Shown in pieces: positions 7,347 through 22,264 of a DNA stretch of 39,145 nt. The notes beneath the pieces were generated by a model that was not told the origin of the DNA, did no database searches, and saw nothing but the letters and a program-made list of their open reading frames with translations. The DNA is from Flavipsychrobacter stenotrophus (lineage in GTDB: Bacteria; Bacteroidota; Bacteroidia; Chitinophagales; Chitinophagaceae). Positions within the stretch are counted from its first letter, which is position 1. Each line of letters starts with the position of its first letter. The position numbers and the translations under genes are program-made. The stretch covers positions 1-39,145 of the forward strand of contig CAMDNC010000011.1 in the NCBI GenBank assembly GCA_945902755.1, read 5' to 3'.

Positions 7347-8228
7347 CTAGCCCTGCAACGCTGCAGCACCACTCACAATCTCTGTAAGCTCGGTTGTAAT
7401 GGCTGCCTGACGCGCTCGGTTGTAGCTAATCTTAAGTGATTTCAACAACTCATTGGCATTTTCGCTGGCTTTATCCATCGCCGTCATACGAGCGCCATGT
7501 TCCGATGCATTAGCATCTAGTACAGATTTGTAAACCTGAGTATTGAGGATTTTTGGCATCAGCTCTAGCAATAATTCCTCCATAGATGGTTCGAAAATGA
7601 AATCTACGTTCATTTTCTTATTAGATTGCTCTACACGTGGAATAGGCAAATATTGCTCAGACACAAAGTTTTGAGTAGCAGCGTTTTTAAACTGGCTGTA
7701 TACTATTTCTATATGATCGTACTCCTTATTAAGGAATGCTTGTTGTGCATACTGAGCAGCTCTACGCACGTTTTCAAATGAAAGATCTGAGAAAATATCC
7801 CAGAAGTTATCTACTAATTTGAAATTGTTACGCTGAAAAAATTCATACCCTTTCTTACCTATTGGGAGTATGGTTATATTACCTTTCGCCATCTGAGAAG
7901 AGTATTTACTTTCTATTATTTGGCGAGTAAGTTTAATAACATTGGCATTATATGCACCACAAAGACCACGATCGCTGGTAACTGTAATGAATAAAATGCG
8001 CTCTATAGGGCGAACCTCTGCGAGAGGCAAACTAACATCTGAAGAAGCAGCACTTACTATATTGCTTAGCATCGCCTGCAATTTGCGAGAGTAAGGACGC
8101 ATCTGCAAAATGGCATCCTGAGCACGGCGAAGCTTTGCGGCACTCACCATTTTCATAGCCTTAGTTATCTGCTGTGTAGACGATACAGATTTTATTCGGT
8201 TACGTACCTCTTTAAGTTGACCTGACAT
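7347..8228 (-). CDS. atpG: ATP synthase F1 subunit gamma
   Basis: The central rotating stalk of F1Fo ATP synthase, in the cytoplasm against the inner membrane. The 293-residue length matches the family. The N-terminal helix is MSGQLKEVRNRIKSVSSTQQ followed by ITKAMKMVSAAKLRRAQ. The middle carries ITSDRGLCGAYNANV, and the C-terminal helix ends KISYNRARQAAITTELTEIV, the most conserved gamma segment. I chose the ATG at 8226-8228 over a longer frame from 8276, because MSGQLKEVRNRI is the normal N-terminus and a TAATTTTG promoter element lies inside the extension. Usually atpG follows atpA in an operon; here no other ATP synthase gene is in the window and both neighbours are T9SS-substrate genes. 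It appears monocistronic. Confidence 0.97.
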   Translation of the reverse strand: MSGQLKEVRNRIKSVSSTQQITKAMKMVSAAKLRRAQDAILQMRPYSRKLQAMLSNIVSAASSDVSLPLAEVRPIERILFITVTSDRGLCGAYNANVIKLTRQIIESKYSSQMAKGNITILPIGKKGYEFFQRNNFKLVDNFWDIFSDLSFENVRRAAQYAQQAFLNKEYDHIEIVYSQFKNAATQNFVSEQYLPIPRVEQSNKKMNVDFIFEPSMEELLLELMPKILNTQVYKSVLDANASEHGARMTAMDKASENANELLKSLKISYNRARQAAITTELTEIVSGAAALQG

Positions 8229-8264
8229 ATAATGAAAATATGATAATAAAACGGAAAATCGATG

Positions 8265-8272
8265 CAAAATTA
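8265..8272 (-). promoter_or_regulatory. Bacteroidota -7 element, atpG
   Basis: TAATTTTG on the minus strand, 37 bases before the atpG ATG, fits TAnnTTTG. It supports independent transcription of atpG rather than read-through from the giant gene. Confidence 0.45.
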
Positions 8273-8319
8273 CCAAATAAAAAGCAAGAATAAAGTTTTT
8301 TTTCCGCCTCAGTTGCGAA

Positions 8320-8394: not shown

Positions 8395-11300
8395 CTATTT
8401 TCTCACTACAAAATGAAACACCTGATGGCCACTTCCATAAATAACTCTGAGCGAGTACAAACCACTGGCCAAATGTAAAGGCAACTGTATCGGTACGTTT
8501 ACAATACCATCTACAGCAGTAGCGGTTATAATTTGCACTTCTTTTCCCAACATATCTGCAATACGTATATCCATCTTGGCGCTATTGGCTGATTGTAGGC
8601 TTCCTTTTAGGATGAAGTTACCAGTATTAGGATTAGGCATCAACATTAAATGTCTATTCACCTGCCCCAAGTTTTGAACACCCACAGTGTTCACATATAT
8701 CACTTCCGACTTACTACCTACAATACCGTTGCACACACCTGACGACACCACTCTACAACTAACAGTATCAAGATTGGCAAATCCTCCATAAACAAATGTA
8801 TTAGTTGTAGCACCTACAATAGCCATACTGTTGATATACCACTGAAAACCAGGCACACTGCCAGCATTAGCTGCTACTGCCGTAAAAGTCACCTCATCAC
8901 CGGCATTGATAGTAAATGCTGGTGATGCATTGATAGTAACTGTAGGAAGAACATACGGCAATACCTCCAAAGTTATTGGTGTACTGAATGCTGTGTCGAT
9001 GAGACGACATCGCTCGTTAGACAACATTGCACAATACACCACATCACCATCGGCAGGCAGGTATGCATAGGTATCTCCTGAACCAGCAAAGCCACCATTG
9101 ACCAACCATCGGTAAACGGGAGACGTACCACCACCTGATGCAGTTGCAGTGAAGTTGGCGACAGAAAACTGACAAAGTGTGTCATTGGGTGTAGTAGCAA
9201 CTGTAATAGTGGGAATAATTGTAGACAACACAATAGGCATCGTAGTGTCATAAGCTACAGCGGGCACCGCACAACCTGCACTACTGGTGAGCCTGCATGT
9301 AATAATATCGCCAGCAGTAGGTGCATAAGAATAGGAAGCACCACTACCTGCGGCTACACCATTAACCTGCCACTGATAGGCTGGTGAACTGCCTGGCAAA
9401 TAGGTAGCTAATGTATAGGTAACTATATTACCGGAACATAAAGTGTCGCCGGATGAAGCAATGATATTAACAGCAGCGGGTGCTATGCTTATAGGATTGA
9501 CAATCGCGGCACCTGGCATGATACGGGTGCAACCAGTGGTCACATTAGTAGCCTTAACAGTATATGTACCTGCTGTGGTATGTAAACCAAAATTCAGTGC
9601 AGCCCCTGTACCAGTAAGGTAAGCAACAGGTATAGTACCATTGTATAACTGATATCCATAACCTACAGCAGAACCAGCTAGAGATATGGGTACACCTGTA
9701 CTGCCAATACAAAAAGTACCACCACCAGTTAGTAGATATGATACTGGCAACTGATTGACTGTGACAGGATGAGTGACCAAACAGCCTGATGGCATACTGT
9801 ATGAAATAACAGTAATACCCGGAGCATTGCCAATAACCTCGCCAGAAATAGTAACTGAAGCAACCGCTATGGCACTACTACTCCAAGTACCAGCAGGCAC
9901 AGTATTGGAGAGATAAATTGTATCCCCAGAACACACAGTGGCGGTACCTGCGATAGGTGATGACGGATGTACTGTGAGCGTTGTAGATGAAGAACAGCCA
10001 GTAGGAATGGTGTAAGTAATCGCTACTGTGCCTGCCGATAAAGACACAGCTGTACCCGTGGTTGGATTGATAGTTGCGATAGCCGAGTCACCGCTACTCC
10101 ACCATCCGCCAGGTGAAGTGCTACTATAAAATGCTGAAGCTCCTCTGCACACACTGGCTGGGCCCGAAATAGCCGTTGGCAAGGGATTGACAGTAATAAC
10201 TGTGGTGCGCGCACAACCAGTGGGTAACGTGTAGGTAACTGTAGTGGTACCCAAAGCCATACCTGTAAGTATACCACTGCCACCTCCAATGATGGCTATA
10301 GCAGTAGATGCAGTGCTCCATACACCACCTACCAAAGCATTGGATAAAACTGATGAGGCACCTAAACATACACTCCCAGAACCAGATATAAGCGATGGCA
10401 AGGGATGAACTGTAACTGCAATTGCCGCAAAACAACCAGTGGGCAACACATAACTAATTACAGCAACGCCAGCTGCAACACCGGTGACGATACCAGTAGA
10501 CGACACAACAGTAGCTACTGCTGGCGTAGAGGAAACCCAAGTACCACCTGAAGTAGCGCAAGCTAAAGTAGTATTGCCACCCGCACAAAGTGCAGTGCTC
10601 CCAGTAACTGCAGCAGGTGGCGCATTTACAAACACAATAGCATTGGTAAAACACCCAGTAGGTAAGGTATATGTGATAATGGACAAACCACTCGCTAAGC
10701 CAGTAACAATACCAGTAGCAGCATCTACACTCACCAATGTAGGCGTACCTGACCAACTACCACCTGCTACTGAATTACTTAGCGTAACTGAGGTGCCTGG
10801 GCATATACTGGCAACACCAGTGATAGATGGTGGGTTTGGGTTGACGCTGACCATTACCACTGCTCTACAACCTGTAGTAAGTGAATAAGAAATAGGAATA
10901 ACGCCAACAGCTATGCCTGACACAACGCCAGATGTACTAATTGATGCGATTGACGGACTGCCTGAGCTCCACACACCGCCTGAATGTGTATTAGAGAGTG
11001 CAGTAGTAGCACCTAAGCACACTAATGGCGCACCCGTAATGGCTGCTGGAGTAGTGTTGATAGTAACATTGTATGTTCGCATACAACCAGTGGGTGAAGT
11101 ATAAGTAATTGATGTACTACCAGTTCCAACACCTGTAAGAAGGCCTGTCACAGGATCTATTGTACCTATAGAAGGACTAGCAATACTCCATACACCACCC
11201 GGCGATGCAGAAGTTAATGTAGCAGATTGGGCTACGCATAGTGCTGCAGAGCCAGAAATGGGCGCTGGTAGTGGATTGACTGTAACGATTGCTGTGCGTA

Positions 11301-14300
11301 TACATCCTGTGGGTAAAGTATAGGTAACATAAGTGACACCAGCAGAAACTCCTGTAACTAAACCTGAAGCATTAATAGTAGCGATAGTAGTAGAGCTTAC
11401 CGACCATGTGCCTGTAGTGCTGGCAGTAGACAACAAAGTAGTGCTACCCTCACATACTGATAGCGTACCTGATATAGTAGTTGGTAACGGGTTGACTGTA
11501 ACGCTATATGTAGCAAAACAACCAGTAGGCAATGTGTAGGAGATAACAGCAATGCCAGCGGCAAATGCACTTACAACACCTGAACTTACGCCAATACCTA
11601 TAACTGGTGTAGCACTGCTAGACCAAGTACCGCCTGCTGAAGCAGACGCAAACATTGCATTGCCTCCTACACACAACTGCGATGGACCCGCAATAGGCAA
11701 AGGAAGTGGATGTACAGTAAATGGCAAAATACGGTAACAGCCAGTAGGCAATGTATATGACACATACCCAGTACCTGCACTTACACCAGTAACCAAACCA
11801 GGCGTAGCCCCCACTGCTGCAAAAACACCCGAACTACCCCACACACCTCCCGAGGTAGCATTAGTAAGTGCAACGGTGGCGCCCAAACAAACATTGTCTG
11901 CACCTGATATTGCAGCTGGTATAGCATTGACGGTCACTATTGCTACCGCTGTACAACCAGAGCCTAATGTATAAAGAACTGGAGCTATGCCCGGAGCTAG
12001 ACCACTTACCACACCTGTTACAGGGTTTATAGTGGCTACTGCAATGTTACCGCTGCTCCATACGCCACCAGCGGCAGTATTAGTGAGTATGGTATTAGCT
12101 CCCTCACATACTTGCAATGCCCCCGATATCAATCCTGGCAATGGATTGACGGTAAGTACTACAGAGCGAATACAACCTGTGGTTAACTGATAAGAAATAG
12201 ATGATGTACCAGCAGCAATAGCAGCTACCAAACCGGAAACTGCATCGATTGTTGCTACTGCAGTATTGCTACTGATCCACACACCACTAGGTGTGGTGCT
12301 AGCCAATGTAGACGTAGCTCCTTCGCACAAGGTAGCAGCACCAAAAATGGTTGCTGGCAAAGGTTGTATTGTGAGTAATGATGTGGTGACACAACCACTA
12401 GACATAGTGTAACTAATAGCTACCGTGCCTGCTGCTATACCTGTAACATCACCGGTGGAGTTGACACTAGCTATTGACGTATTACTGCTACTCCACGAAC
12501 CACCTGAAATTGGATTGGTTACTGACACTAAAGATGCGACACAAAGTGTGGCAGGTGCCGTAGAGGGCGCCAGAGCATTGACAGTAAGCAAACGTGATAC
12601 TACACAGCCAGTAGGAAGTGTATAACTAATCCGAGCCGTGCCGGCTGATATACCAGTTACCAATCCTGTACCTGCGGCAACCGCTATCGTAGTGTCGGTA
12701 GTAGTCCATATGCCACCTGCCAGAGTGTTGAACTGTGCTACTGATTGCCCTACACATACACTAGATGATCCGGTGATAGAAGATACAGGATTTACTGTTA
12801 CTACAGTTGTGGCAACGCACCCATTACCAAAAGTATAAGAAACTACAGTAGTACCAGCTGCGATACCAGACACAAAACCACCAGCTACAGACGCAACTGC
12901 TGGGCTACTGCTGCTCCACATACCACCCGATATAGGATAGGTGAGCGCTGTGGTGCTTCCCATACATACAGATGTCACACCACTGATTGCTGACAATGGC
13001 AATACAGTGACAACTGTGCTTGCCACACACCCTGAAGGCAAAGAATAAGAAACAACTGAAGTACCGGCACCTAAACCAGTTACTAATCCAGTACTACCAA
13101 TAACAGTTGCTATAGCTGTGTTACTGCTAGTCCATACCCCACCCGATATCGAATTGGAAAGCGGTGTGGAGAACCCAACACAGGTAGCAGCCGTACCAGT
13201 AGACGTTGCAAATGGATGTACAGTCACAGCTCTGGTGACTCTACACCCATAAGCAATGGTATAAGATATTAATGCAGTGCCCGGGGCTATTCCACTCAAT
13301 ACACCCGTACCACCTACCACGGTAGCTATAGATGTGTTACTACTGTTCCATGCACCACCGATTGTAGTGGAAGCAAGCGTCGTAGAAAGGCTGTTGCAAA
13401 CTGATGATGCACCAGTGATGGGGGCAGGTATTGGATGCACTGTAACTACCACTAGGGCACTACAACCTGCACCCAAAGTATAAGAAACAACAGCAGTACC
13501 AGCAGATACTCCGGTAACAATGCCTGATAAATCGACAGAAGCAACAGATGGAACAGATGAACTCCATACACCACCAACAGTAGTATTTGAAAGTGATGTC
13601 GTTTGCCCGGCACATACCCCTGCAGCACCTGTGGTAGCAGCGGGAATAGGATTCACAGTGACCGGCATTATCGCATAGCAACTGTTAGGCATATAATAGG
13701 TGATCACAGCAGTACCTGCCGACACACCCGACACTATACCTGTTCCGCTGACAGAAGCAATTGTGGGCAGTGAACTGCTCCAGATACCTCCAGTCGTTGT
13801 ATTGGACAATACAGAGGCTAACCCAATACATACACTAGGCGTACCTGATATAGGCGCAGGTGAGGGATTGACAGACACAACTCTTGTAGCATTACAACCT
13901 GTGCCTATCATGTAGGTGATAGTAGCTGTACCTACACTTACACCCGACACCAAACCGGTTGCGGCATCAATAGAAGCAACAGATGGGTTTGCACTTATCC
14001 ACGTGCCACCCCCTAATGCAGGGTCTGAGAGTGAGGTAGTGGCACCAGTACACACTGTAGCAACACCAGCTATTACAGATGGCAAAGGACTCACCGTTAC
14101 AACAACTGGCACCGCACAACCCGACGGCAATCTATAAGTAATACCGACAGTACCAGGAGATACACCAGATACTGCCCCAACAGTGGCGAGGACAGAAGCA
14201 GTAGATGGAGATGAACTACTCCAGGTTCCGCCAGATGGCGTACTCGATAACAAGGTAGTGTAGCCCACACATACGCTAGGCGCACCTGTTATAGCAGTAG

Positions 14301-17300
14301 GTACCACTTGTACTGTGATTACTTGTGTAACTGAACAACCAAGACCTAGGGTGTATGATATGGTAGTAGTGCCCAACGCTACTGCGCTTACAAAGCCTGT
14401 AGACGGATGAATAGTAGCGACGGAAGGATCGGTACTTGACCACACGCCACCAGATACAATATTTGAAAATACAGGGGTAGTACCAATACATATTGATGGA
14501 TTGCCCAAGATGGGTCCAGGCACAGAATTTACTGTTACCGAAGTAGTGGCTACACAACCAGTAGAGGGGGTGTAACTAATGGTAACAATACCTGCACTCA
14601 TGGCTGTGACTGTACCTGTGCTCGCACCTACTGTAGCTATAGATGGACTACTGCTACTCCATACACCGCCCGTAGTAGCCGATGATAATAATAAACTAGA
14701 ACCAGCGCAAATCGACACGCCACCACCAGTGATGGCAGCGGGTAACGGATTGACCGTAAACAAACGCGATACACTACATCCACCAGCCAAAGCATATTGA
14801 ATGGATACCAACCCAGGAGATACACCAGTTACCACACCAGTAGCCGAGCCGACTGTAGCAATTGATGCATTACTGGACGCCCACACACCTCCAGAAACAG
14901 CATTAGTTAGGGTAACAGAAAAACCAGGACAGACATTAGCCACACCACCTATAGGTGCTGGCAATGGTGCTACAGTAACTAATTTGGTGGCTCTGCAACC
15001 ACCCGGAAGTGTGTAGGTAATAGTAGCTGTGTTAACTGCATAGCCTATCGCTGCTCCCGATGTAGCATTGATGCCTGCAACCAACGGACTACTGCTACTC
15101 CATGTACCACCAGGTGTGCTGTGTGAATATACTGAAACTGCCCCAACACAAATGGTATTGCTGCCTGAAATAGGAGTAACCGCTGTAACAGTAACTACAG
15201 AGGTAGCCGTACAACCAGTAGCTAAGGTATAGGTTACTACAGCAGTTCCCACTGAAATAGGTGATACTACCCCCGTGGTGGGATTAACAGAAGCAATAAT
15301 AGCAGCAGTAGTGCTCCACCCGCCACCTGTAACAGAATTGGAAAGTAAAATATTAACTCCAGGACATGTTGGAACACTACCTGTAATAGCTGGAGGTAAT
15401 GGATTGACTGTTATGGTGCGCAGTGCTGTACAGCCCACGCCCAAGGTGTAGGTGATAACAGATGTACCTAATGAAATACCCGACACAATACCACCAGTAT
15501 CTATCGTTGCTACGGATACATTGCTGCTGGTCCATGTGCCTCCTAACGTAGCATTGGTAAGTGCGCTGGCAGTGCCTAGACATACAGATGCAGACCCGGC
15601 AATAGCCGCAGGTAGTGCATGCACCGTAAAGGAACGGGTAACCGCACACCCTGTTGGCAATGTATAAGCAATAGTCACCACGCCGGAATTAGACCCATTC
15701 ACTAACCCGGATGTAAGCCCTACACTAGCTATGGAAGTATTACTGCTAGCCCATGTGCCACCAGATGTGGCGCTAGTAAGCGTGGTATTTAGTCCTTGAC
15801 AAATTGCAGACAAACCCACAATAGATGCAGGCAGCGGATTGACTGTAATTGACCTTACAGCGAAACAACCTGTGTTGAGTGTGTAAGTAATAGTAGCTAC
15901 ACCTGCTGCTACACCAGACACTACACCTGTTATGGGCGCAACGGATGCAATAGTACCGATACTACTAGTCCATGTTCCCCCTACTACTGTATTTGTAAAT
16001 GTTGTACTGGAACCGACACATACAGCTGCTGCACCTGATATTGCAGTAGGTGTGTTATTGACTGTTACAACTCTTGTGGTGATACAACTAGTGGGTAATG
16101 TATAGGTGATAATTGTAGTGCCTGGCACAGCACCAATTACAATACCTGTGCTAGCGCCAATACCTGCTACTACTGTGGTACTACTCGTCCATACACCACT
16201 TGGTGTTGCACTGGTTAGTGGAGTAGGAGCTGAGATACAGATACTTGCAGTGCCCGTTATCGCGGCAGGTAATGGATTGACGGTGATAATACGGGAAGAA
16301 ACACAACCCAATGGCAACATATACGTAATAGCTGCTGTACCTGCAGCCAAACCCGTAACAACTCCACCAGCACTGATAGAAGCAATAAGTGGTGCACCTG
16401 AACTCCAACTTCCACCGGGTGTAAAATTGGTCATATTTACTGTATTGCCCACACACACAGTTGCTGCTCCTATAATGGTAGCAGGTAGAGCTGTGACACT
16501 GAGTGCCGCTGTAGTATTACAGCCAGTGGGTAATGTATAAGATATTATAGTAGCACCTCCAGCAATACCTGTAACTATACCAGAAGCTGATACTATAGTA
16601 CCCACTGCAGGCACACTACTGCTCCAAGTACCTCCAGTTGCTGTATTAGTGAACGAGGCAGTAGCATTTTGACAAATATTAGTTGGGCCAATAACAGGAC
16701 CGGGTAGAGGATGAACAGTAATAGTACGTGTAGCAGAACAAGCGGTAGGCAGGGTGTAACTAATGACTGCTGTACCTGCAGAAATACCACTTACTAAACC
16801 AGCAGTCGAGCTAACAGTTGCAACGGCTGTATTGCTGCTTGTCCAACTACCGCCTGTAGATGTTGTAGTATACAATGTTGAGGACCCCTCACATACAATA
16901 GACGAACCACTAATGGCGGACGGTAAAGGATTGACAACGACTAACGCGGTATTGAAACAGCCAGTTGGCAGGGTATAAGTTACACCAACAGTACCGGGCA
17001 CAACACCAGTTGCAATGCCAGACGCACTACCTATAATTGCAGTAGCCATGGCACTGCTCACCCATGTACCACCCGAAGGCATACTGCTCAAAGTAGCGCT
17101 TGTGCCCGGACAAATGTTAAGTGTGCCAGTGATAGCTGATGGTATAGGCAACACTGTAACAACAGTAGTAGCGACACATCCACTAGAAAGCATATAAGTA
17201 ATTGTGGCTGTACCTGAAGAAATACCAGATACCACGCCTGTGCTTGGAAGTACTGAAGCGACTGCTGTATTGCTGCTCGCCCATATACCAGCAGGTGTAG

Positions 17301-20300
17301 CGTTTCCAAGCGTGGTTGTCTGGAATTCACAAACGGATGTTGTGCCCGAAATAGCAGCCGGTGATGTATTTACAGTCATTGGCAAAGTGGCGATACAGCC
17401 TGTAGGCAATGTGTAAGTAATAATGAAAGTACCTGCAGTAATACCTGTTACAGTACCTGCACCTACCCCCGATGCTATAACGGTAGCGATTGGGACATTG
17501 CTACTAGTCCACGTACCCCCAACTGTCGTGTTGCTAAGCAATGTTGTAACACCAGTACATACAGTATTACTTCCATCTATTGCAGCTGGTAATGGGTGCA
17601 CCGTTGCTATGCTGGTAGTATTGCAACCAGTGGGTAACGAATAAGTAATGACTGTGGTGCCTGCCGAAAATCCCTGCACCATGCCTGTACTACTACCTAC
17701 TACAGCTACTGTTGTGTTGCTACTGCTCCATGTACCACCTGTGGTAGTACTATTTAAAACAGTGGTAAGCCCTTGACAAACCGTTAATGTACCAGAAATC
17801 GCATTAGGGACAGAGTGAACGGTAATGCTACGCACACTCCTGCACCCAGTAGGTAGTGTGTAGGTAGCAGTACCAGTACCTGCTGCCACACCAGTTAGCA
17901 ATCCGGTACTGACACCTAAAGCAGTTACCGTTACCACACTTATGTTGCTGCTACTCCATGTGCCTCCCAATGTTGCATTACTCAGTACGCTGGTCTGCCC
18001 AGTGCATACCGTAGCTATGCCTGTTATAGCAGCTGGCACAGGATTGACCGTAATGGTAGTTGTCTTAAAACAACCAGTAGTAGCTGTGTAAGATATAGTT
18101 ACGACACCTGCATTTACACCGGTTACTACTCCAGTTGCTGCACCTACATTTGCAATTGCCGTATTACTACTCGTCCAACTACCGGCAGCAGTGGCATTGG
18201 CGAGTGTTGTACTAATACCTACGCAAACTGTTGTGGCACCTGTAATATCGGCAGGAAGTGGAAATACAGTTACTGTTCTGCTAGCAACGCAACCTGTAGC
18301 CAGCGTATAACTTATGACTGCTGTACCAAGCCCCACACCATTTACAATACCTGTTGCAGCACCTACTACTAAAACACTAATATTAGTAGAAGACCATGTA
18401 CCTCCCAAAGCAGTGTTCGTTAGCGTTGTTGCTGCACCTAAACAGGTAGTGGTATCTCCGGATATAGCTGATAATGGATTGACAGTGATAGTTCGTGTAG
18501 CTATGCATCCAGTACCGGTAAGCCGGTAGGATATTGTGGCAATACCATTTGCAATACCAGTCACTACTCCAGTAGCAGATCCTACAGTAGCTATTGTGGT
18601 GATGCCGCTTTGCCAAGTACCACCGGTAGTAGCATTAGCAAGTGTAATAGACTGAGTCGCACATACAACTGACGGACCAGTTATAACAGCTGGTAACGGC
18701 TGCACAGTAACCTGCCGCACAGCTCTGCAACCCACTCCTATGGAATAAGTAATGTTGGCAGTGCCTAATGCTAGACCATTAACTACTCCGGAAAAAGTAT
18801 CTACGTCGGCTACAGTGGTGTTACTACTACTCCACGTACCACCAGCAACAGCATTTTGCAATGTATCCGTAGTACCCAAACATACATTAGCATCGCCCGT
18901 AATGGCAGGGGGACTATTGCTTACAGTGACAACCGATATGGCTGCACAACTTGCTCCTAATATATAACTTATAGCTGCTGTACCAGTAGATACTCCAGTC
19001 ACCAAACCGGTAGCAGAGCCCACTACTGCAACTGCTGTATTACCACTTACCCACGTACCACCTGCCGCACTGTTAGTTAATGTAGTGCTGATACCGGTAC
19101 ACAAATTCAGCGCACCAGAAGTAATACCTGGAGCAGGATTGACCGAAACCACCGATGTGGCAGCGTTGCTGCAAGCGCCTGCTGTTGACGTAGCGGTATA
19201 TGTGATAACCGAGGGAGAAATAATACCCGTAGGATATACATAAACCGTATTCGTAGCGGTACCCGCGACATAAGGTATTGTGTGGGCTGCATCGTTATAA
19301 AGATGGGTAACAGGCGACCAAGTGGGTGTTACTATTCCCGTTACCCCAGTAATAAGAATATTATCTACAGCCCAATAATAGCCAAATGTTGACCTGTAAT
19401 TGAATCTGATTCTCACATTAGTGTTACCCAAATAAGCATTTAGCGAAAAAGACTGACCAACAAATGACATCTTGCCACCTACACTAGCACCCAAATAGTT
19501 GTTGATTACCGTCCACGTAGATCCTCCATTAGTAGATATCTCTAAATTTACATTAATATCACCTGCAGCCCAATAATCATACGCATGCTGAAACGTGAGT
19601 GTGGCGGCTGAGTATAAAGCCAATGAAAAAGAGGGCGAGGTGAGCCGGGTAGATAACGTAGAGGATGAACCAGAAGTATCGGCATTAGCCATTACAAAAG
19701 TACTCGAGTCGGGGCTTCGATACCAACCCTGCTCGTTTAGGTAACTGTCTGCACATGCCTTCCACTCTGAGCCGTGCAGTATATTTATACTACCCACAGT
19801 ATCTACCGTCCATGGAGCCACGCCAGAGTTAAAGTTTTGTGATAAAATAGTGGTAGGCGCTACCCCAGTGGCGGCATTGATAGTAAGCCCAGTGGCATCG
19901 CATATAGTAGAAACTGTAGGCGTAAGTGCAGGTGCCAATGGTGGATTATTGATGAAGATGGTCTTTCTGGACGCACAGCCACCAGCAGTGTAAGATACCA
20001 TAGTAGTACCTGCAGCTATACCTGTTACTACGCCAGATGTACTGATTGTGGCTGCCGATGGTATAGTGCTGCTCCATACCCCCCCACTGGTAGCACATGC
20101 TTGCGTTATGGTATTGCCTGGACACACATTACTGAGTCCAGTTATCGGCGCAGGTGCCACAAGCACTGTAGCTGTTATCGTATTAGAGAAAACGGGGTTG
20201 GTGGTTACACAACCTACACTACTATTCATACGGCAACTAATAGTATTGCCATTAGCCAGTGAATTATTAGTATAACTGCTACCTATGGATACATCTATTC

Positions 20301-20937
20301 CATTAAGCGTCCAGGTGAAGGTAGGTGAACCACCACTGACCGGAATAGGTGTAAAAACGACATTAGTCCCTGGACAAAAAGCACCAGAAGGTGATGACGT
20401 CAGCGTAACTGATGGCGTAACAGGCGCTGTAACAGACAGCGAACCAAAGTTAGTACCACCCACTCCTAGCGATATACCCACAATACCAGACGCCATTGAT
20501 GCCACAATATTACCAGCAGCAGCAGTTGTGCTAAGTGGCTGCACCTGCAGCCCCGTTATCATTACCTGATCAGCCATTGTAACACCAGTAGCACTGATAT
20601 TGACTGTAAGAGCAGTGCTGCTAATAAAACCCGAAACTCCCGTAATATTAGAACCTGTTATGTAGGTAATAGCTGGTAACGCACCACTAAACTGCCAGCC
20701 AGTAGGCGCCTGCAAGACAAGCGTATTGGTACCAATGCCAAAATCTGAATTTACAACTTCAGTTATCAGTATAGAACCTAAACTTGTAAAAGCTGGCGCA
20801 GTACTACCCACCGCCTTGTTACTGCATATGCCTGTACCACCGGTGCCCGGTAACACAGTAACTGCTGCAAACACACTGTGCTGTAGTCCGCACCACAAGG
20901 CAATCGACAGTATAATTCTCAAAAACATTTCACGCAT
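8395..20937 (-). CDS. Giant Big_2-repeat surface protein with type A T9SS sorting domain
   Basis: About 4180 residues. I place the start at the ATG 20935-20937, giving the signal peptide MREMFLRIILSIALWCGLQH...VFAA; ATGs at 20988 and 20928 are alternatives. Order, with approximate residues: Ig/PKD-like N-terminus (25-260); one lone Big_2-like repeat (260-335); a MAM/jelly-roll-like domain (360-530) with FNSGVAPW near its start, NLEISTNGGSTW, and YWAVDNILITGV; 43 more Big_2-like repeats (602-3731); about four Ig-like modules (WQVNG..., ITCRLTSSAGC); and a T9SS tail (4086-4180) with LMPNPNTGNF, ADMLGKEVQ, LASGLYSLRV and FVVRK. It should be exported by Sec and T9SS to the surface or medium. No enzyme motif was seen, so a fibrous adhesin is the likeliest role, by analogy with SprB. 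The frame is uninterrupted over 12.5 kb. A PorP/SprF gene is divergent from it. Confidence 0.93.
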   Translation of the reverse strand: MREMFLRIILSIALWCGLQHSVFAAVTVLPGTGGTGICSNKAVGSTAPAFTSLGSILITEVVNSDFGIGTNTLVLQAPTGWQFSGALPAITYITGSNITGVSGFISSTALTVNISATGVTMADQVMITGLQVQPLSTTAAAGNIVASMASGIVGISLGVGGTNFGSLSVTAPVTPSVTLTSSPSGAFCPGTNVVFTPIPVSGGSPTFTWTLNGIDVSIGSSYTNNSLANGNTISCRMNSSVGCVTTNPVFSNTITATVLVAPAPITGLSNVCPGNTITQACATSGGVWSSTIPSAATISTSGVVTGIAAGTTMVSYTAGGCASRKTIFINNPPLAPALTPTVSTICDATGLTINAATGVAPTTILSQNFNSGVAPWTVDTVGSINILHGSEWKACADSYLNEQGWYRSPDSSTFVMANADTSGSSSTLSTRLTSPSFSLALYSAATLTFQHAYDYWAAGDINVNLEISTNGGSTWTVINNYLGASVGGKMSFVGQSFSLNAYLGNTNVRIRFNYRSTFGYYWAVDNILITGVTGIVTPTWSPVTHLYNDAAHTIPYVAGTATNTVYVYPTGIISPSVITYTATSTAGACSNAATSVVSVNPAPGITSGALNLCTGISTTLTNSAAGGTWVSGNTAVAVVGSATGLVTGVSTGTAAISYILGASCAAISVVTVSNSPPAITGDANVCLGTTDTLQNAVAGGTWSSSNTTVADVDTFSGVVNGLALGTANITYSIGVGCRAVRQVTVQPLPAVITGPSVVCATQSITLANATTGGTWQSGITTIATVGSATGVVTGIANGIATISYRLTGTGCIATRTITVNPLSAISGDTTTCLGAATTLTNTALGGTWSSTNISVLVVGAATGIVNGVGLGTAVISYTLATGCVASRTVTVFPLPADITGATTVCVGISTTLANATAAGSWTSSNTAIANVGAATGVVTGVNAGVVTISYTATTGCFKTTTITVNPVPAAITGIATVCTGQTSVLSNATLGGTWSSSNISVVTVTALGVSTGLLTGVAAGTGTATYTLPTGCRSVRSITVHSVPNAISGTLTVCQGLTTVLNSTTTGGTWSSSNTTVAVVGSSTGMVQGFSAGTTVITYSLPTGCNTTSIATVHPLPAAIDGSNTVCTGVTTLLSNTTVGGTWTSSNVPIATVIASGVGAGTVTGITAGTFIITYTLPTGCIATLPMTVNTSPAAISGTTSVCEFQTTTLGNATPAGIWASSNTAVASVLPSTGVVSGISSGTATITYMLSSGCVATTVVTVLPIPSAITGTLNICPGTSATLSSMPSGGTWVSSAMATAIIGSASGIATGVVPGTVGVTYTLPTGCFNTALVVVNPLPSAISGSSIVCEGSSTLYTTTSTGGSWTSSNTAVATVSSTAGLVSGISAGTAVISYTLPTACSATRTITVHPLPGPVIGPTNICQNATASFTNTATGGTWSSSVPAVGTIVSASGIVTGIAGGATIISYTLPTGCNTTAALSVTALPATIIGAATVCVGNTVNMTNFTPGGSWSSGAPLIASISAGGVVTGLAAGTAAITYMLPLGCVSSRIITVNPLPAAITGTASICISAPTPLTSATPSGVWTSSTTVVAGIGASTGIVIGAVPGTTIITYTLPTSCITTRVVTVNNTPTAISGAAAVCVGSSTTFTNTVVGGTWTSSIGTIASVAPITGVVSGVAAGVATITYTLNTGCFAVRSITVNPLPASIVGLSAICQGLNTTLTSATSGGTWASSNTSIASVGLTSGLVNGSNSGVVTIAYTLPTGCAVTRSFTVHALPAAIAGSASVCLGTASALTNATLGGTWTSSNVSVATIDTGGIVSGISLGTSVITYTLGVGCTALRTITVNPLPPAITGSVPTCPGVNILLSNSVTGGGWSTTAAIIASVNPTTGVVSPISVGTAVVTYTLATGCTATSVVTVTAVTPISGSNTICVGAVSVYSHSTPGGTWSSSSPLVAGINATSGAAIGYAVNTATITYTLPGGCRATKLVTVAPLPAPIGGVANVCPGFSVTLTNAVSGGVWASSNASIATVGSATGVVTGVSPGLVSIQYALAGGCSVSRLFTVNPLPAAITGGGVSICAGSSLLLSSATTGGVWSSSSPSIATVGASTGTVTAMSAGIVTISYTPSTGCVATTSVTVNSVPGPILGNPSICIGTTPVFSNIVSGGVWSSTDPSVATIHPSTGFVSAVALGTTTISYTLGLGCSVTQVITVQVVPTAITGAPSVCVGYTTLLSSTPSGGTWSSSSPSTASVLATVGAVSGVSPGTVGITYRLPSGCAVPVVVTVSPLPSVIAGVATVCTGATTSLSDPALGGGTWISANPSVASIDAATGLVSGVSVGTATITYMIGTGCNATRVVSVNPSPAPISGTPSVCIGLASVLSNTTTGGIWSSSLPTIASVSGTGIVSGVSAGTAVITYYMPNSCYAIMPVTVNPIPAATTGAAGVCAGQTTSLSNTTVGGVWSSSVPSVASVDLSGIVTGVSAGTAVVSYTLGAGCSALVVVTVHPIPAPITGASSVCNSLSTTLASTTIGGAWNSSNTSIATVVGGTGVLSGIAPGTALISYTIAYGCRVTRAVTVHPFATSTGTAATCVGFSTPLSNSISGGVWTSSNTAIATVIGSTGLVTGLGAGTSVVSYSLPSGCVASTVVTVLPLSAISGVTSVCMGSTTALTYPISGGMWSSSSPAVASVAGGFVSGIAAGTTVVSYTFGNGCVATTVVTVNPVSSITGSSSVCVGQSVAQFNTLAGGIWTTTDTTIAVAAGTGLVTGISAGTARISYTLPTGCVVSRLLTVNALAPSTAPATLCVASLVSVTNPISGGSWSSSNTSIASVNSTGDVTGIAAGTVAISYTMSSGCVTTSLLTIQPLPATIFGAATLCEGATSTLASTTPSGVWISSNTAVATIDAVSGLVAAIAAGTSSISYQLTTGCIRSVVLTVNPLPGLISGALQVCEGANTILTNTAAGGVWSSGNIAVATINPVTGVVSGLAPGIAPVLYTLGSGCTAVAIVTVNAIPAAISGADNVCLGATVALTNATSGGVWGSSGVFAAVGATPGLVTGVSAGTGYVSYTLPTGCYRILPFTVHPLPLPIAGPSQLCVGGNAMFASASAGGTWSSSATPVIGIGVSSGVVSAFAAGIAVISYTLPTGCFATYSVTVNPLPTTISGTLSVCEGSTTLLSTASTTGTWSVSSTTIATINASGLVTGVSAGVTYVTYTLPTGCIRTAIVTVNPLPAPISGSAALCVAQSATLTSASPGGVWSIASPSIGTIDPVTGLLTGVGTGSTSITYTSPTGCMRTYNVTINTTPAAITGAPLVCLGATTALSNTHSGGVWSSGSPSIASISTSGVVSGIAVGVIPISYSLTTGCRAVVMVSVNPNPPSITGVASICPGTSVTLSNSVAGGSWSGTPTLVSVDAATGIVTGLASGLSIITYTLPTGCFTNAIVFVNAPPAAVTGSTALCAGGNTTLACATSGGTWVSSTPAVATVVSSTGIVTGVAAGVAVISYVLPTGCFAAIAVTVHPLPSLISGSGSVCLGASSVLSNALVGGVWSTASTAIAIIGGGSGILTGMALGTTTVTYTLPTGCARTTVITVNPLPTAISGPASVCRGASAFYSSTSPGGWWSSGDSAIATINPTTGTAVSLSAGTVAITYTIPTGCSSSTTLTVHPSSPIAGTATVCSGDTIYLSNTVPAGTWSSSAIAVASVTISGEVIGNAPGITVISYSMPSGCLVTHPVTVNQLPVSYLLTGGGTFCIGSTGVPISLAGSAVGYGYQLYNGTIPVAYLTGTGAALNFGLHTTAGTYTVKATNVTTGCTRIMPGAAIVNPISIAPAAVNIIASSGDTLCSGNIVTYTLATYLPGSSPAYQWQVNGVAAGSGASYSYAPTAGDIITCRLTSSAGCAVPAVAYDTTMPIVLSTIIPTITVATTPNDTLCQFSVANFTATASGGGTSPVYRWLVNGGFAGSGDTYAYLPADGDVVYCAMLSNERCRLIDTAFSTPITLEVLPYVLPTVTINASPAFTINAGDEVTFTAVAANAGSVPGFQWYINSMAIVGATTNTFVYGGFANLDTVSCRVVSSGVCNGIVGSKSEVIYVNTVGVQNLGQVNRHLMLMPNPNTGNFILKGSLQSANSAKMDIRIADMLGKEVQIITATAVDGIVNVPIQLPLHLASGLYSLRVIYGSGHQVFHFVVRK
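9740..19132 (-). repeat. Tandem array of 43 Big_2-like repeats, about 218 bp each
   Basis: I counted 43 consecutive units by eye, plus one earlier unit at about 19940-20160 beyond the MAM-like domain. Each is about 71-76 residues. The consensus starts AITG...VCxGxTxxLSN, then GGTWSSSNTAVATV, then STGVVTGVSAGTATITYTLPTGC, and ends with a TVNPLPA linker. Every unit keeps a first cysteine near the start and a second near the end, about 50 residues apart, and a central tryptophan. The core matches bacterial Ig-like group 2 domains. Units are clearly related in protein but diverged in DNA, with varied synonymous codons. The exact edges are approximate. Confidence 0.92.
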
Positions 20938-21259
20938 ATTACATCCCGAAAAAACAGGTGGCATAAGGCGCAAAAACACATTCCCCATTTGTTGTAGTTT
21001 AACTGCAATAAATCCCTTACCGATTTCAACGAAAACCGGAAGACGACCTATTATTACAAAGATAAAAAATTGTAAATAAATTATGCCAGTTTAGTTTAGG
21101 ACTGGTTCAACGCTTTTCACTTTCGAAAAACAGCCCAATTCGATGCGGCAATGATCATTTTTTATATTCCCCCTGAAATATAATTAATACAAAACAATAA
21201 TATAGCTCAATCTATCGTTTCAACCCTTTGCTCACTTTTCACCTTTTTATCAACACACT
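20938..21259. other. Divergent intergenic region between the giant gene and the PorP/SprF gene
   Basis: This 322-base AT-rich gap must hold the promoters for both genes. A TATCTTTG element for the giant gene lies at 21057-21064. No TAnnTTTG element is evident for the plus-strand gene; TTTG at 21227-21230 could be a -33 box but lacks a matching -7. A short inverted repeat (CCAGT/ACTGG) lies near 21086-21105. No ORF, RNA gene or strong hairpin was recognised. Confidence 0.6.
21057..21064 (-). promoter_or_regulatory. Bacteroidota -7 element, giant surface protein
   Basis: TATCTTTG on the minus strand, about 120 bases before the chosen start, fits TAnnTTTG. It implies a leader of about 115 bases, longer than for most genes here. 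No good -33 TTTG at the expected spacing. Confidence 0.4.
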
Positions 21260-22264
21260 ATGCGCACTATTACATTTATTGCATTCACTACATTATGCAT
21301 TCCAAGCATTAACACCACAGCACAAAACATACAGCATACCTTGGTAGATGCTACCCCACTCATCCTCAATCCAGCTTTTGCAGGCAACACACCCGGCAAA
21401 CTAAGAGTAATCGCCAATCACAGATTTGAAAGCCCCAACTCATACATTCCTTACAATAATTCCAATATATCGGTAGACGCACCTTTGATAACGCTAAAAA
21501 ACGGTAATTTTATTGGATACGGATTTTACATTAACAGGTATAAAATGAAGAATGATTTTTACAGCTCTTCTAACATGTCAACAAATGCCAGTATATCTGT
21601 CCATAAAATAATAAAGGTAGACGAAAATAACCTGCTAGATATTGCCGGAGGTATAACTGGAGGTGTAGCGTCCTATTATCACGACGCATCTTTTGACTAC
21701 TTTACTTACAAAAACAATTACCTCTCACCATTCAATTATTTGTATGCAGGTACTAATTATTACAATATTGACTTAGGTGGCTCGGTATCACATTCAGTGG
21801 GCAATAAGTTTAATTATATTGTATCATATAGTATCAATAATTTCAATAGTGAAAGTGATGCATTACTTGAAAGACAACGAATTTCAGTCGGTCTTGATAA
21901 AAGACAATTATTCAGTTTTGGTGGTAATGTATACCTGAATAATCGTTGGCAACTACGCCCATGTTTTATACACATAAAACAATCTACCACCACCAACTAT
22001 ATAGCTGGTAATGAATTTACGTATCACCTAAAAAATAGCAAAAACCAAACCTCTTTGTTTGCAGGATTGTGGTATAGGTCGGGAGATATGCACTCAGTAA
22101 CAGTAGGCGTAAACCGTACCTTCTGGCGCGCAGCAATAGCGGTAGATTATGGCATATCTAACCCTAAGAGGGTATATTACAACGATGCCCTAGAGCTTAG
22201 CCTGAGTTATGCCATGGCACCCTCTAAAAACAGCCGAAAACAAGTGGTATGTAATAGATTTTAG
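21260..22264 (+). CDS. PorP/SprF family type IX secretion outer-membrane protein
   Basis: A 334-residue protein with a signal peptide (1 to about 21, MRTITFIAFTTLCIPSINTT then AQ). The N-terminal family signature is DATPLILNPAFAGN followed by KLRVIANHRF; PorP/SprF proteins typically read 'NPA.AG..G..R....YR'. The rest is alternating beta-strand sequence rich in Y, N and S (GYGFYINRY, LDIAGGITGGVASYY, SVTVGVNRTFW), as expected for an outer-membrane barrel. In Flavobacterium johnsoniae, SprF is needed for secretion of the giant adhesin SprB, and PorP/SprF homologues often neighbour their T9SS clients. Here the gene is divergent from the giant repeat protein, making it the obvious candidate partner (inference). 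It ends 51 bases before the convergent DUF1275 gene. ATG at 21260. Confidence 0.9.
   Translation: MRTITFIAFTTLCIPSINTTAQNIQHTLVDATPLILNPAFAGNTPGKLRVIANHRFESPNSYIPYNNSNISVDAPLITLKNGNFIGYGFYINRYKMKNDFYSSSNMSTNASISVHKIIKVDENNLLDIAGGITGGVASYYHDASFDYFTYKNNYLSPFNYLYAGTNYYNIDLGGSVSHSVGNKFNYIVSYSINNFNSESDALLERQRISVGLDKRQLFSFGGNVYLNNRWQLRPCFIHIKQSTTTNYIAGNEFTYHLKNSKNQTSLFAGLWYRSGDMHSVTVGVNRTFWRAAIAVDYGISNPKRVYYNDALELSLSYAMAPSKNSRKQVVCNRF

Follow-up and report, generated by a model that had tools for sequence, protein, structure and literature searches.

Bacterial surface stalks that are built from repeats are often said to vary in the number of those repeats. The protein SiiE of Salmonella is described as a rod of 53 BIg beads, 175 nm in length, and the loss of more than five of its domains is reported to abolish SiiE-dependent invasion (PMC6272769). 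The grappling hook of Aureispira is formed by GhpA, a protein of 5,898 residues that is secreted by the type IX secretion system (T9SS) and reported to be a heptamer (PMC11205867), and GhlA of Litorilinea, which contains 49 DUF11 domains, is described as having a three-stranded stem, probably C3 (PMC13319060). SprB is reported to carry a type B C-terminal domain (CTD) that needs SprF, whereas RemA is reported to carry a type A tail, and the same source describes how tails of type A are cut by PorU and the new C-terminus is joined to A-LPS (PMC10202324). Periscope proteins are described as containing near-identical repeats in variable number (PMC9704523).

The window analysed here, a stretch of 39,145 nucleotides from Flavipsychrobacter stenotrophus (contig CAMDNC010000011.1), contains an open reading frame at positions 8395 to 20988 of the minus strand that encodes 4,197 amino acids from its first ATG without interruption, and the plus-strand reading of this stretch contains many stops. 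The original prediction of a single unbroken 12.5-kb frame, which had named no strand, is therefore borne out on the minus strand, where all of the parts described below are located. Met18 (position 20937, where the originally stated coordinates end), chosen by eye, is the likelier start because a typical signal peptide begins there; this probable Sec signal peptide (residues 18–41, 20866–20937), also judged by eye, resembles the hydrophobic leaders at the N-termini of the orthologues. The sequence TATCTTTG at 21057–21064 of the same strand fits, by reading only, what we take to be the Bacteroidota −7 box TAnnTTTG and is a candidate for this element. The putative signal peptide is followed by N-terminal modules that are beta-rich and Ig-like and show no family match above cut-off (residues 42–277, 20158–20865), by a lone Big_2-like repeat identified with a repeat HMM (residues 278–348, 19945–20157), and by a module that is tentatively MAM- or jelly-roll-like (residues 381–562, 19303–19848). 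The greater part of the protein consists of 43 tandem Big_2-like repeats of 70–76 amino acids, each with one cysteine pair (residues 619–3747, 9748–19134). C-terminal Ig-like modules (residues 3748–4117, 8638–9747), which lie within a C-terminal module of approximately 450 amino acids, and a type A T9SS C-terminal sorting domain (residues 4118–4195, 8404–8637) complete the frame.

The repeat HMM, which was built from the giant's own array, finds 44 units, one lone and 43 in tandem, in agreement with the number that had been predicted. Pfam Big_2 (PF02368) matches the protein in 30 stretches (8.1e-96) and is outscored by Ig_NUP210_16th (9.7e-110, 33 stretches). The 43 array repeats, of approximately 73 residues, have a mean identity of 44.6% at the amino acid level and 52.6% at the DNA level, with DNA identities between repeats of 39–64%, a longest exact DNA repeat of 18 bp and a top pair of 63% amino acid identity; adjacent repeats are no more similar than distant ones, and at four-fold sites 35.5% of positions are identical versus 30.7% expected from composition. 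Because the repeats are so dissimilar, their four-fold sites so near to composition and the longest exact repeat so short, the array is taken to be old and without recent amplification. Misassembly or repeat collapse, which had been named as something that could overturn the prediction, was rejected and is unlikely, since the repeat DNA is this divergent and contains no exact repeat longer than 18 bp, and the count of 43 is also found in seven other genomes. The claim of 43 nearly uniform, cysteine-paired repeats in a row also stands: both cysteines are kept, with no losses, in 591 of 591 repeat matches of the 14 complete orthologues. One tryptophan is invariant in all 43 array repeats, and aspartate and glutamate together make up 0.83% of the array, a value that describes composition only.

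A structure model of repeats r21–24, aligned with 61 other four-repeat segments of the giant and its orthologues, predicts Ig-like beads (mean pLDDT 94.3, pTM 0.74), so that structure prediction and the PF02368 profile search agree on the Ig-like repeats originally claimed. The best Foldseek matches of this model are mostly strings of Ig-like beads, among them Nup210, GhpA, the extender of an Aeromonas RTX adhesin, S-layer proteins and cadherins. Cryo-EM fragments of GhpA occupy ranks 3–6, 10, 12 and 13, i.e. seven entries among the first 13 (E 2e-11 to 2e-10, TMq 0.28–0.33, 18–22% identity). TM-scores among the 50 matches listed range from 0.19 to 0.43; such low scores are expected when bead-to-bead angles differ, and the matches therefore speak of fold and not of kinship. 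Searching PDB sequences with the repeat profile found Nup210, intimin and other Big_2 proteins. For the MAM-like module, the profile search gave Reelin_subrepeat-B alone at an E value of 0.012, below the cut-off. The model of the N-terminal 577 residues is poor (mean pLDDT 54.9), with pLDDT values of 64–91 at mature residues ~30–140 and poor values beyond, and its Foldseek matches include the jelly rolls of reelin, LAST-MAM, meprin and the gingipain Kgp K3 adhesin. These matches accord with the weak Reelin_subrepeat-B match and may be taken as a hint, but since poor models can give meaningless matches, the MAM assignment of residues 381–562 is tentative.

The tail of the giant scores 29.4 bits with TIGR04183, over the cut-off of 23, and is thus classed as a type A T9SS CTD; PF18962 gives 21.9 bits, under its own cut-off of 27. 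The source genome, which is 95% complete (3.5 Mb in 266 contigs), encodes SprA (2461 bits) and PorU (1202 bits), and the model for type A tails matches it at least 150 times (150 of 186 candidates were scored). The T9SS export signal had been foreseen, as had the terminal Ig-like modules that precede the tail, and both were found; with the SprA and PorU genes present, the giant is probably a cell-surface protein. The C-terminal module of approximately 450 amino acids (8398–9747) also occurs in 13 other places of the source genome, over at least 280 residues and at E values of at most 1e-28, and has 31–141 matches in each of seven relatives, many of which are parts of one array. Other T9SS proteins of the genus have this module in common with the giant.

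Scanning GTDB genome contigs with the 606-residue N-terminal part gave 14 loci, seven of them with a nearly full-length match (64–91% identity in the best segment) and seven with a partial or distant one; every named record with the complete N-terminal part is a MAG. When the MAM-like module was searched against 35 genomes of the genus, 26 gave matches, with at least 51% identity in 17, the source's own included, and lower identity in the other nine. Genomes from the GTDB scan recur within these 17, as judged by contig number and coordinates. The orthologue frame is complete at both ends and free of Ns in 14 of the 17, and in the remaining three (L053, L130 and L135) it ends at a contig end; 16 array repeats are visible in L053, and in L135 the spacing turns to ~82 residues after a few repeats. 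Besides the giant itself, the complete orthologues (L071–L076, L127–L129 and L131–L134) come from MAG records titled Flavipsychrobacter, Taibaiella, Chitinophagaceae, Bacteroidia, Sphingobacteriales and uncultured Bacteroidetes. Three shorter proteins (L136–L138; 1,370–1,915 amino acids) with repeats of ~77 residues were left out of the orthologue count. A relative of 3,863 amino acids in the named strain F. stenotrophus RB1R16 (L054) is 40% identical over query residues 320–603, and the repeat HMM gives no match in it.

The whole architecture is common to all 14 complete orthologues, so the original view that it is unmatched is not supported. No published description of this protein was found in the open-licence PMC literature. 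A midpoint-rooted tree of the non-repeat parts divides the 14 into a clade of nine (clade 1) and a clade of five (clade 2), with support of 100/100 each. Since L071 is sister to the giant and L072 to L073, there are fewer independent lineages than genomes. Eight of the nine clade-1 proteins have a tandem count of 43 (the giant, L071, L072, L073, L075, L076, L127 and L128) and four of the five in clade 2 a count of 42 (L129, L132, L133 and L134), so that 42 or 43 repeats are present in 12 of 14, the giant included. The exceptions, which are natural variants in length, are L074 of clade 1 (G197/G215), with 39 repeats, and L131 of clade 2 (G222), with 26. Against the giant, L074 is without r30–31 and r38–39; against other partners its gap is slightly shifted, lying between about r29 and r39.

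Number is not the only property that the clade-1 arrays share. In six non-sister pairs among the giant, L072, L075 and L076, the repeat score at offset 0 lies 12–17 SD above that of the other circular offsets, and the best path from the giant to each of the seven 43-repeat partners of its clade is a straight diagonal from 1 to 43. Repeats matched by position are 49–52% identical between the giant and its non-sister partners, versus 44% for unmatched repeats. Taken singly, only 17–23 of the 43 repeats have as their top match the repeat of equal position in a non-sister array, where approximately one would be expected by chance; on these comparisons the clade-1 register appears as a property of the whole array and not of repeats singly. 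Within clade 2, the 42-repeat arrays align straight in the three pairs tested. Between the two clades the array ends alone are clearly in register. A register restored by one deletion scored weakly better than single offsets (5.8 versus at most 3.3) and was rejected. Identity within clade-2 arrays is 0.47 versus 0.43–0.45 between clades, a pattern that would fit either partial re-making of the array middle or loss of signal. The near-constant number of beads in most of these relatives suggests that length or domain order matters.

The Big_2-like repeat is not peculiar to this family, which is a second respect in which the architecture is less isolated than was thought. Six of seven other giants fetched from the source genome contain it, with 34 (C10), 25 (C14), 17 (C33), 38 (C45, cut at its 5' end), 41 (C51) and 19 (C12) matches. 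Like the giant, all six have a type A tail, and C33 and C12 also share its C-terminal module of ~450 amino acids; they differ from it in having fewer or interrupted repeats and different N-terminal parts. Among complete frames, the C33 family has 17, 17 and 15 repeats and the C14 family 25, 25, 27 and 23 (L153, which is cut, was left out), while C51 has 41 repeats and a complete relative that is 57% identical over the query region has 14; the relative of C51 in G211 (L154) was left out because a contig end cuts the frame. Because these numbers vary, the 43-bead family is steadier than these three families, a small set that comes partly from G215, the genome with the 39-repeat exception. Mean DNA identity between repeats is 0.48–0.57 in the control arrays versus 0.525 in the giant, but the controls are imperfectly matched because several (L143, L148, L145, L150 and L142) hold repeat pairs of 82–95% amino acid identity versus 63% in the giant; four others (L149, L151, L152 and L155) have no pair above 67%. 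The C10 giant itself (L140; 4,234 amino acids) contains among its 34 matches some of up to 95% amino acid identity and a longest exact DNA repeat of 73 bp, and its near-identical repeats read as a recent duplication in the source genome. Another protein of this genome (L139; C63, 4,724 amino acids, cut at its 5' end) consists of tandem Ig-like units of ~88 residues that match the first unit of the C-terminal module and give no match with the repeat HMM. Still larger frames, of 7,207 residues (G195:C56) and 10,216 residues (G221:C353), occur in relatives.

Conservation is unevenly distributed along the protein. The MAM-like module is the most conserved part, with 76–81% identity in the non-sister clade-1 orthologues and 53–64% in the five complete clade-2 proteins. 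In non-sister comparisons within clade 1, the array is 49–52% identical (L127 not included) and the C-terminal module 41–47% (five relatives). Between the giant and L071, dN/dS is 0.04 in the N-terminal part, 0.11 in the array and 0.21 in the C-terminal part, and the corresponding values between L072 and L073 are 0.02, 0.08 and 0.14; purifying selection acts on each of the three parts in the two pairs and is strongest N-terminally, where the presumed tip lies. Over the ~600 N-terminal codons (19135–20937) dS rises to 1.4–1.6 per 200-codon segment, versus 0.6–0.9 in two neighbouring genes, and this high dS is accompanied by very low dN in both pairs, with lower dS over most of the array. Possible accounts of this are that the alleles are old or that the tip region has been exchanged.

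Directly downstream of the giant and on the same strand is the gene for ATP synthase gamma (7350–8276), which adjoins the giant in six of the nine clade-1 loci (source, L071, L072, L073, L075 and L127), lies 1.3 kb off in L128, and was not found in the fetched flanks of L074 and L076. The divergent gene on the other side (21260–22264, plus strand) has an 'LNPAFAG' start, presumably a PorP/SprF-like motif, and matches nothing in Pfam or NCBIfam at E values of at most 0.01. It was considered as a conserved secretion partner and rejected, since tblastn (E at most 1e-6) on the fetched flanks of the 12 remaining complete loci placed it beside the giant in the source and L071 only, and the cognate tails of PorP/SprF are described as type B (PMC10202324), whereas the giant's tail is type A.

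The reading that these results best support, and the one we think somewhat more probable than otherwise, is that the giant is a surface stalk of constrained length with a conserved MAM-like tip. The signal peptide would take the protein into the periplasm, from which it would pass the outer membrane through the T9SS, and the sortase PorU would then swap the type A CTD for an A-LPS anchor. With the tail anchored to A-LPS, the C-terminus would be held at the cell, leaving the N-terminal modules outermost. The 43 Ig-like beads, whose cysteines (~51 residues apart within a bead, ~22 between beads) may form disulfides, would make a rod, the array of which would be ~140 nm long if each bead added ~3.3 nm as in SiiE, and the MAM/jelly-roll-like module near the N-terminus would act as the ligand-binding tip. 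Bead number and order might then be near-constant because the tip needs a set distance from the cell, or because individual beads have functions tied to their place in the array. It is also conceivable that the array is itself the binding surface, acting by avidity along many beads, with the MAM-like module as an accessory. Glycan binding by the domains of SiiE along the rod has been proposed (PMC6272769), and the invariant tryptophan of the 43 repeats could be seen in the same light, but that residue sits in a core motif common to the NUP210 domain found by the repeat profile, and conservation of the MAM-like module far exceeds that of the array. We judge a binding array very unlikely.

A more serious challenge to a length-set stalk is that constancy may need no selection on length. 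The repeats are so different in DNA that slippage and recombination should be rare, and an array whose repeats diverged long ago could simply pass on its count, as the stalk of an ordinary adhesin. Such a frozen state would fit the mean DNA identity of 52.6%, the longest exact repeat of 18 bp, and the absence of any pair above 63% amino acid identity, versus the 82–95% pairs left by recent duplications in several controls; it would also fit the description of variable-number surface proteins as those with near-identical repeats (Periscope; PMC9704523). However, controls of similar mean DNA identity (0.48–0.57) still change in number, and those that do so include the four without a pair above 67%; the clade-2 arrays, moreover, look partly re-made (0.47 versus 0.43–0.45) and yet total 42 in four of five. 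On balance we regard simple inheritance of the count as rather unlikely. If copies of the giant instead lay side by side over their full length in a filament or hook, with beads of the same position touching, number and order could not drift, and lateral registration would indeed predict a fixed number and register. The T9SS-secreted GhpA heptamer (PMC11205867) and the three-stranded GhlA stem (PMC13319060) offer reported precedents, and fragments of GhpA stand high in the Foldseek list, but many other Ig-bead proteins score alike there, the giant has no sequence match to GhpA, and with no VipB match in the 95% complete genome a predation kit like that of Aureispira is not evident. A multi-chain assembly is, to our mind, a live rival but quite unlikely. 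Bolder than the length-set, tip-presenting stalk, which remains the best-supported reading, is a proposal that takes in the registered multi-chain fibre, namely that the genus possesses a surface device sized by selection at ~43 Ig beads, either a single molecule acting as a length ruler for the MAM-like tip or a fibre or hook of several chains in lateral register; the two clades would have reached or kept 43 and 42 though their array middles are no longer recognisably in register. We consider this wider proposal unlikely as it stands.

The giant belongs to a kind of protein that is already known, the T9SS type A giants of Big_2-like beads. What appears new, and unusual, is the near-constant number of beads and their common register across much of a genus: 43 very dissimilar beads seem to have kept their number and order while diverging to ~50% identity, beside sister giants of the same genomes that change. 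The question of how the length of a surface stalk is determined thereby becomes testable by comparison of families within one genus. Like GhpA and GhlA, the giant is a chain of Ig-like beads, and like GhpA it is predicted to be T9SS-secreted. Membership of the GhpA family by sequence was considered and rejected, as phmmer with the whole protein (E at most 0.01) and the repeat profile (E at most 1) found no GhpA chain among the PDB GhpA chains. An ixotrophy kit like that of Aureispira was likewise rejected, with no match to the T6SS sheath protein VipB in the source genome (95% complete). GhpA and GhlA show that arrays of beads can build multi-chain hooks; by analogy the giant might do so too. 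The gliding adhesins SprB and RemA resemble it, by description, as T9SS-exported surface adhesins. SprB, originally named as an example of T9SS-secreted giants, is the wrong comparison where the tail is concerned, its CTD being described as type B (PMC10202324) and the giant's being type A, and the pairing that marks the SprB type, a CTD of type B and an SprF/PorP gene clustered with it, was not found in the giant. Periscope proteins share with it the plan of a rod of repeats presenting a tip, and are its opposite in that the giant's repeats are divergent (52.6% at the DNA level) and near-constant in number (43 in eight of nine, 42 in four of five). The nearest functional analogue would be SiiE, although SiiE is a T1SS substrate with Ca2+-binding aspartates and the giant has a type A T9SS tail, a cysteine pair in each bead and only 0.83% acidic residues in its array; as far as composition can tell, the Ca2+-binding acidic residues of the SiiE and RTX extender type were not found in it. 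The giant may thus represent a T9SS counterpart to SiiE, one that could be stiffened by disulfides instead of calcium.
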